DNA of 46,127 nt from Actinomycetes bacterium (lineage in GTDB: Bacteria > Actinomycetota > Actinomycetes > Streptosporangiales > Streptosporangiaceae). The stretch's first letter is position 1. Every line of letters begins with the position of its first letter. Location: NCBI GenBank assembly GCA_021793235.1, contig JAJYTD010000035.1, forward strand, positions 1 to 46,127, given 5' to 3'. Positions 45,140 to 46,127 of the stretch are shown here, in pieces. A program made the translations under genes and the position numbers. The notes under the pieces are model-generated. The model made no database searches, was not told the DNA's origin, and saw only the letters and a program-made list of their open reading frames with translations.

Positions 45140-45742
45140 TCACCACTCGATACCGCGCTGCCCCTTCTGTCCGGTGTCCATGGGGTGCTTGACCTTCGTC
45201 ATCTCGGTGACCAGGTCGGCGGCGTCGCACAGCCGCGGATCGGCGTCGCGGCCGGTGATGATGACGTGCTGGCTTCCGGGGCGGTCGCGCAGTGTCGCGA
45301 CCACCTCGTCGACGTCCACCCATCCCCACTTCATGGGGTAGGTGAACTCGTCCAGCACGTACAGCCGGTAGGTCTCGGCGGCCAGATCGCGTTTGATCTG
45401 CGCCCACCCCTCGGCCGCGTCGGCGGCGTGGTCGTCCTCGGTTCCCCGGCGCCGGATCCAGGACCAGCCCTCGCCCATCTTGTTCCAGTCGACGCGGCCG
45501 CCCTCGCCGGAGGCGCCCAGGACCCGCAGCGCCTTCTCCTCCCCGATCCGCCACTTGGCGGACTTCACGAACTGGAACACTCCGATATCCCACCCCTGCG
45601 CCCATCCCCGGGTGGCCATCCCGAACGCGGCGGTGGACTTGCCCTTGCCGGGACCGGTGTGCACGACCAGCAGCGGGCGGTTGCGGCGCTGGCGGGTGGT
45701 GAGCCCGTCGTCGGGCACGTAAGCGGGTTTGCCCTGCGGCAT
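45140..45742 (-). CDS. cobO: Cob(I)alamin adenosyltransferase CobO
   Basis: A 200-residue CobA/CobO-type ATP:corrinoid adenosyltransferase forming the Co-adenosyl bond. GLTTRQRRNRPLLVVHTG begins the fold, GPGKGKSTAAFG is the P-loop that binds ATP in reversed orientation, and VLDEFTYPMKWGWVD and VIITGRDADPRL are typical. ATG 45742 (MPQGKPAYVPDDG) matches homologues; ATG 45748 two codons upstream is possible. Neither has a strong ribosome binding site. It would normally be co-transcribed with the Mg-chelatase-like gene upstream, but a MITE-like insertion lies between them. Confidence 0.94.
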   Translation of the reverse strand: MPQGKPAYVPDDGLTTRQRRNRPLLVVHTGPGKGKSTAAFGMATRGWAQGWDIGVFQFVKSAKWRIGEEKALRVLGASGEGGRVDWNKMGEGWSWIRRRGTEDDHAADAAEGWAQIKRDLAAETYRLYVLDEFTYPMKWGWVDVDEVVATLRDRPGSQHVIITGRDADPRLCDAADLVTEMTKVKHPMDTGQKGQRGIEW

Positions 45743-45761
45743 GTTCATCTCATCTCTGTGT

Positions 45762-45785
45762 TGTCCACGGGGTTGTCCACGGGCT
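45762..45785. repeat. Tandem DnaA-box-like repeat
   Basis: TTGTCCACGGG occurs twice in a row, 13 bases apart. TTGTCCACA is the actinomycete DnaA-box consensus, so these two differ only at the last base. Two copies near a gene start are not an origin. Confidence 0.5.
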
Positions 45786-45791
45786 CTTGAG

Positions 45792-45958
45792 CTAGGTCGT
45801 GTTTGCCGAATCATTTCGGGCTCGCGGCCACCAGGCTGCCTCTCGCTGCGCCGATGTCGCTTGCCCAGCCAACCAGGATGATCTGCGCGAATCGTCTTGC
45901 GAGAGATTGCCTGGACGGCCGCTCGCTGGTCCGAAAGCCTTCGTCAAACACTCCCTAG
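45792..45958. mobile_element. MITE-like element, 159 bases, flanked by CTAG
   Basis: Left end CTAGGTCGTGTTTGCCGAA (45792-45810) and right end (45940-45958, reversed) CTAGGGAGTGTTTGACGAA match at 16 of 19 positions, and a shared TTTCGG continues the terminal repeat inward. CTAG on both sides is the expected 4-base target duplication of IS427-group IS5 elements. The inside holds no open frame of note, so it would be a non-autonomous element. The right CTAG supplies the stop codon of the upstream Mg-chelatase-like gene. Confidence 0.7.
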
Positions 45959-46127
45959 GCCGCGGTGCGGGTGTGCCGCACGAGGTCGCTGAGCGCGTCG
46001 GCGCCCACCTCCTCCAGACGCACAGCGGTACCGCCCATCTCGGCGGCCAAGCGCCCGGCGAGCCCCAGGCGCACCGCGCCCGATTCGCAGTCCACGACCA
46101 CGCTCTGCACGCCCTGCGAGCCGATCC
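45955..46127 (-). CDS. Mg-chelatase-like (ChlD/VWA) protein, C-terminal end
   Basis: The visible 56 residues (VQSVVVDCESGAVRLGLAGR, LAAEMGGTAVRLEEVGADAL, then SDLVRHTRTAA) match the end of the von Willebrand A domain of magnesium-chelatase subunit D-like proteins, which lie next to cobO in many actinobacterial cobalamin loci and help cobalt insertion or act as a chelatase partner. The rest lies beyond the window edge. The TAG stop is part of the CTAG that flanks the MITE-like element. Family assignment rests on a short stretch plus context. Confidence 0.75.
   Translation of the reverse strand, partial: IGSQGVQSVVVDCESGAVRLGLAGRLAAEMGGTAVRLEEVGADALSDLVRHTRTAA

Follow-up and report, generated by a model that had tools for sequence, protein, structure and literature searches.

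Several short mobile elements of bacteria offer points of comparison for the one analysed here. In the parts of the respective reports drawn on here, the enterobacterial ERIC, or RU-1, element is a stem-loop of 127 bp with a terminal TA that duplicates TA upon insertion (PMC2759123), RUP of Streptococcus pneumoniae is a TA-target MITE with IS-like ends (PMC2229807), and the ends of GTAG REPs frequently provide the TAG stop of flanking ORFs (PMC3733652). The window, i.e. the whole stretch of 46,127 nucleotides of actinobacterial DNA that we analysed, carries an element that shares the short stem-loop form, TA ends, and TA duplication with ERIC, the TA target with RUP, and the habit of ending flanking genes in TAG with GTAG REPs. 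In two other genomes, its family has ends like those of IS427-type members of the IS5 family, whose CTAG/TA target it also uses; IS-like ends are a further likeness to RUP. We consider it very probable that this is a non-autonomous MITE of about 164 bp, moved by an IS5/IS427-type transposase, which gathers at gene ends because it rebuilds the TAG stop codon, and whose fold may serve as a 3′-end hairpin.

A preliminary description, made from the letters of the window, had placed an inverted-repeat element of 159 bases between two copies of CTAG, and its coordinates and arms are borne out: CTAG occurs at 45792–45795 and 45955–45958 with 159 bases in between, and two 35-nt arms are 74% complementary (Table 1). 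When the duplicated TA is counted as target, the element spans 161 bases, from G45795 to C45955. It is thus short and non-coding with terminal inverted repeats, as expected of a MITE, and the other MITE hallmarks were likewise found, i.e. many dispersed copies (in the host genome and its relatives) and a target-site duplication with empty sites (at the sites of other copies). Rfam returned no match for window positions 45500–46127 at E ≤ 1, and none at the gathering score for eight element loci.

Table 1 Features at the right end of the window (positions in the window).
Feature	Position	Strand	Basis
cobO, cob(I)yrinic acid a,c-diamide adenosyltransferase, downstream, same direction	45140..45745	-	profile match
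Left inverted-repeat arm including flanking CTAG	45792..45826	+	35 nt, 74% complementary
Left TA target duplication, within CTAG 45792–45795	45793..45794	.	single TA in 12/16 empty sites of other copies
MITE body, 161 bp (GG...CCC), between duplicated TAs	45795..45955	+	bounds inferred from other copies' empty sites
Right inverted-repeat arm including flanking CTAG	45924..45958	-	35 nt, 74% complementary
TAG stop of cobaltochelatase-like gene	45955..45957	-	TA from target, third base is the element's terminal base; frame backed by TIGR02442 match
Right TA target duplication, within CTAG 45955–45958	45956..45957	.	sequence; empty sites of other copies
Mg/cobalt-chelatase-like gene, 3′ end, open at contig end	45958..46127	-	TIGR02442 C-terminus

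The right CTAG had also been read as carrying the TAG of an Mg-chelatase-like gene, with the stop kept and the gene parted from cobO, and both the sequence and a profile match agree with this, the TAG and cobO lying as listed in Table 1. The last 56 residues of the chelatase-like fragment match positions 605–641 of 641 in TIGR02442 (putative cobaltochelatase; E = 1.7e-4), a score that falls far short of the model's cut-off, the gene being present only in part; it cannot be read further upstream since the window stops at the contig's end. The fragment had no match in Pfam, a best E of only 0.74 or worse among solved structures, and nothing among plasmid proteins. The window copy has same-direction genes on both sides and could reduce cobO expression. 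The cobO frame is open upstream into the element (45140–45814), with an ATG inside the element at 45814, and a tandem 12-base repeat (GTTGTCCACGGG) occupies 45760–45783, just upstream of cobO.

Further copies, which the preliminary description had proposed to look for, exist in the host genome. A 191-base query against the 4.8-Mb host draft recovered 11 full-length places at ≥97% identity, the window copy included, confirming that the described structure is real and that its occurrence goes much beyond chance. With both ends recognised, 19 host elements were found, comprising 11 of 161 bases, five of 203–254 bases, one of 123 bases, and two of 36 bases; the five longer forms contain one or two additional palindromic modules. 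Modules of this kind, about 42–52 nt long and of the GGGCCCCCGCTG...AGTAGGGGC type, sit at fixed positions in the element in longer or altered host copies (L012, L014, L015, L016, L040, and L045), and related ones occur in copies L030 and L035 of genome G022. The minimal 36-base copies (L049:1527–1562 and L050:1533–1568) consist of the two ends plus a few bases. Eight draft contigs of G000 (C1, C29, C55, C72, C84, C89, C98, and C105) end at or inside copies, and the repeat seems to break the draft assembly.

Beyond the host, a plain DNA search was positive for 8 of 60 genomes, host counted. We also built a covariance model from 17 aligned copies, taken from six genomes of six different genera, and searched it against 200 genomes of the host's family, the six model-building genomes among them. 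At E ≤ 1e-4, 58 of the 200 genomes had matches, representing 26 of the 68 genera and again counting the host, with copy numbers per genome being lower bounds as at most 14 candidates were scored in each. The length between model ends was 162–167 bp in 123 of 144 extracted copies. The interior of an L138-type copy additionally matched five Streptomyces plasmid records; three of these were inspected with the covariance model, which gave about 65 bits for two full-length matches and 28.6 bits for one that covers positions 15–164, and the ends of all three are unlike those of the host element. The window element itself had no match in plasmids or in phages, nor did an L122-type copy in plasmids or an L138-type copy in phages. 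An 18-base end pattern searched against genome contigs, possibly with records of the host and its near kin excluded, matched once in each of 18 stretches; almost all of these belong to unrelated phyla, and we take them for chance matches.

Empty orthologous places identify the target. The joined flanks of 19 copies were searched in congeneric genomes, and 16 places, from 8 of the 19 sites, were chosen and aligned. According to the covariance model, the element is absent from all 16. A single TA stands at the junction in 12 of them, 10 times within CTAG, and from this we conclude that the target is CTAG and that insertion duplicates the TA. Both flanks align in eight of the 12 TA places (six filled sites; CTAG in six of the eight), and only one flank aligns well in the remaining four, among them L323, which has other sequence inserted nearby. 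The four places where TA is absent read CA, GG or, in one case, T followed by a gap; the orthologue there may use TGA. An empty site with a single CTAG, the check envisaged by the preliminary description, is thus available as single-TA orthologues at the sites of other copies, the window's own site not being among them; the 59 other genomes of the plain DNA search include none of the host's genus.

The empty sites rule out a static conserved RNA gene. They also bear on a REP/REPIN-type repeat that a RAYT, a single-strand transposase, would mobilise and whose end supplies TAG by accident. The element has a hairpin form, and GTAG REPs, as far as the sections of the report used here go, often give flanking ORFs their TAG stop (PMC3733652). 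TA is present at both ends of our filled sites and only once in 12 of the 16 empty places, as with DDE transposases, making a RAYT-moved repeat extremely improbable. Insertion without target duplication is a defining feature of REPs and REPINs, and in view of the TA duplication we reject a REPIN.

As for the mobiliser, an IS5-family transposase, of the IS427 subgroup, would move the MITE in trans, cutting at CTAG and duplicating the TA. That the CTAG target points to such an enzyme had been proposed in the preliminary description, along with a comparison to the ends of complete IS elements, and the proposal is supported by ends shared with resident IS copies in two other genomes; a search of the host itself revealed no cognate IS. 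In G085, a 937-bp IS with DUF4096 (PF13340) has one end identical to the MITE end over 19 nt, and in G020, where the transposase belongs to NCBIfam IS5 family NF033580, the end of a resident IS differs from the MITE end by one mismatch in 18. These are two of 27 genomes with IS loci inspected, the loci being a partial sample; in the other 25, no match between IS and MITE ends was seen at the loci sampled per genome, and 20 further loci of seven genomes inspected for IS partners had no matching ends. In the host, a PF13586 search gave nothing, and two DUF4096 matches have no matching ends nearby. DUF4096 was not found in G098 (at least 14 copies of the MITE) at E ≤ 1e-8, nor at E ≤ 0.01 in G007, which has copies and in which DDE_Tnp_4 and DDE_Tnp_1 had no match either. 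From the likeness of sequence ends, we infer an IS5/IS427-type mobiliser that is now missing or unassembled in the host. Only two genomes support the reading that element ends follow those of the resident IS, and we do not claim it as general.

IS630 elements also duplicate TA. The duplication at the empty sites would thus suit an IS630/Tc1-type transposase as mobiliser in place of IS5/IS427, as would G098, the genome without a DUF4096 match at E ≤ 1e-8, where an IS630-family IS at CTAG adjoins four copies. The IS630 end inspected there is unlike the MITE ends, against the alike IS5/IS427 ends in G085 and G020, and we regard an IS630/Tc1-type mobiliser as improbable. At the G098 loci (e.g. L124:382–1500), the IS630-family transposase ORF ends at the CTAG of the IS border, and the four MITE copies lie exactly in such CTAGs.

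The stop codon in the window is one case of a well-supported habit of the whole family. We classified sites by means of a codon model, for which 131 long ORFs served as the training set, and based the main count on the 80 of 144 copies that read TA at both model ends; the 64 copies left out, whose model ends are not both TA, comprise 6 called stop and 58 not. A TAG stop holds 52 of the 80 copies, the remaining 28 have other locations, and no copy was called as gene-internal. The background consists of 51 further CTAG sites, from the window and flanks, with 11 stops, 9 interior sites, and 31 others, so that stops are in excess among copies (52/80 vs. 11/51; Fisher p = 1e-6). Sense-coding flanks towards the element number 58 of 160, and every one of these 58 has the TAG in phase, compared with 12 of 23 sense-coding flanks at background CTAG sites. 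Dropping four rows with shared flanks leaves 54 of 54 in phase and 49 of 76 at stops. A strict script restricted to the host places 6 of 12 copies at stops, and reading the host sequences by eye suggested more.

Among ten scanned proteins that end at host copies, four have a C-terminal domain that is complete or nearly so, namely sigma-70 region 4 (positions 1–50/50, in a sigma factor with regions 1.1 to 4), R3H (1–60/60), enoyl-CoA hydratase (2–249/251), and DctM (to 412/413). Four others have domain matches uninformative on the end, and two have no match.

This bias would follow from target and element combined. CTAG is rare in the G+C-rich genomes concerned, and TAG stops make up about a quarter (11/42) of its occurrences outside gene interiors. 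After insertion, a terminal G of the element adjoins the TA at both of its ends, so that TAG is rebuilt whichever strand is read and the protein stays as it was, which would let copies accumulate at gene ends. Survivorship alone offers another account, in which any CTAG is hit, copies within genes are lost, those at stops remain, and the hairpin serves transposition only. It would explain why none of the 80 copies, vs. 9 of the 51 background sites, is called inside a gene, and would suit the scarcity of CTAG in the window (12 observed vs. 38 expected by a Markov estimate). Stops are, however, also enriched over CTAG sites that are not interior (52:28 vs. 11:31; p = 6e-5), and we consider pure survivorship a serious contender that falls just short of being favoured.

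The fold of the element also bears on this choice. Folded as a single strand, the window element reaches z = −4.25 on the + strand and −6.53 on the − strand, with 0 of 200 shuffles folding as well on either strand. At least 45 foldback pairs form in 102 of 136 near-full-length copies, compared with 16 of 680 shuffles. Pairing is kept well inside the ends, which argues against a hairpin for transposition only: cores with 25 nt trimmed per side form at least 30 pairs in 121 of 136 copies vs. 72 of 680 shuffles. Folded singly, four of five cores have z between −3.6 and −6.6, the fifth (L126; z = −0.85) folding no better than shuffles.

Covariation was measured on 50 loci with 59 model matches, of which 51 were retained at E ≤ 1e-14, a cut that excludes reverse-strand matches of copies already present; median pairwise identity among the 51 sequences is 0.62. 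Paired cells amount to 86.7% vs. 69.9% in shuffled data, both sides change in 31 of 39 pairs, and the covariation score is 0.416 vs. 0.159 shuffled and ≤0.091 with slid partners, all of these figures leaning towards the model, since the alignment was fitted to its structure and includes the model-building genomes; the folds of single copies are independent of it. Taken together, the foldback of the whole element is conserved by paired changes in a wide range of genera, and the outermost ends vary between genomes. G-U cells (88) and A-C cells (71) are about equal, so that neither strand is preferred, as pure survivorship would also have it. The balance suits a DNA foldback or RNA read off either strand, and rules out a strand-specific RNA.

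Besides transposition, the likeliest use of the fold would be as a hairpin at transcript 3′ ends, terminator-like or RNA-stabilising, in both directions. Gene ends at copies are followed 29 times by a convergent gene and 24 times by one in the same direction, with 4 uncalled; for background gene ends, the corresponding numbers are 16, 53, and 4. Convergent neighbours thus make up 29 of 53 oriented cases vs. 16 of 69 in the background (p = 6e-4), an excess inflated by five double-stop sites, each counted twice (ten gene ends), and by the ability of CTAG to stop both strands. The excess suits a two-way transcript end, operon avoidance, or CTAG serving as a stop on both strands.

If the sequence patterns were the product of a host-facing role, gene-end copies would be kept as two-way 3′-end structures, terminator-like or mRNA-stabilising. 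Copies directly at stops, their surplus between convergent genes, the compensatory changes in the fold, and the very stable folds (core L126 excepted) are all in line with this. The U-run expected of a classic terminator was, however, not seen, and the window copy lies between same-direction genes, where termination would possibly be costly; we hold such a role to be possible but doubtful. A still more tentative extension, which we think rather unlikely, is a gene-end specialist: insertion at stops would make the element invisible to the proteome, the core would be selected as a portable two-way transcript end, and the outer ends would be exchanged to suit the resident transposase. We retain the IS5/IS427-moved MITE that rebuilds stop codons as the most probable explanation, within which both the shares of targeting and survival in the stop bias and the transcriptional role of the fold are inferred.

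For a bacterial group that matters for antibiotics, the family supplies a concrete and testable example of a parasite sparing its host, with stop codons as landing sites that repair themselves. Should the hairpins end or protect transcripts, new 3′ ends would come ready-made by transposition. The copies could also point to a safe insertion route in genetic engineering.

Compared with known systems, the element differs from ERIC/RU-1 in sequence and hosts, and by ends that resemble IS5/IS427 in two genomes. RU-1 is reported, in the part of the account used here, as fused to ORFs (PMC2759123), whereas the called sense flanks of our element stop at TAG. RUP has an IS630-type partner, and the sections of its description drawn on here mention no stop-codon habit (PMC2229807); the actinobacterial element combines IS5/IS427-like ends with CTAG. 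GTAG REPs, as presented in the excerpts used, are 20–40 bp long and tied to RAYTs (PMC3733652), in contrast to a foldback that spans the full 164 bp and duplicates TA, and, unlike with GTAG REPs, TA is already at the site in most empty orthologues. From IS427-type members of the IS5 family, the MITE is set apart by carrying no transposase gene and by a structured interior that, by eye, is unlike the G020 IS. In the open-access literature (subscription journals and ISfinder lying outside this search), we recognised no report of actinobacterial stop-codon MITEs or of these end sequences in a bacterial genome. What seems new is the combination of family-wide insertion at stops with the codon rebuilt, a strongly covarying full-length hairpin of near-fixed length over many genera, and differing ends around a persistent core.
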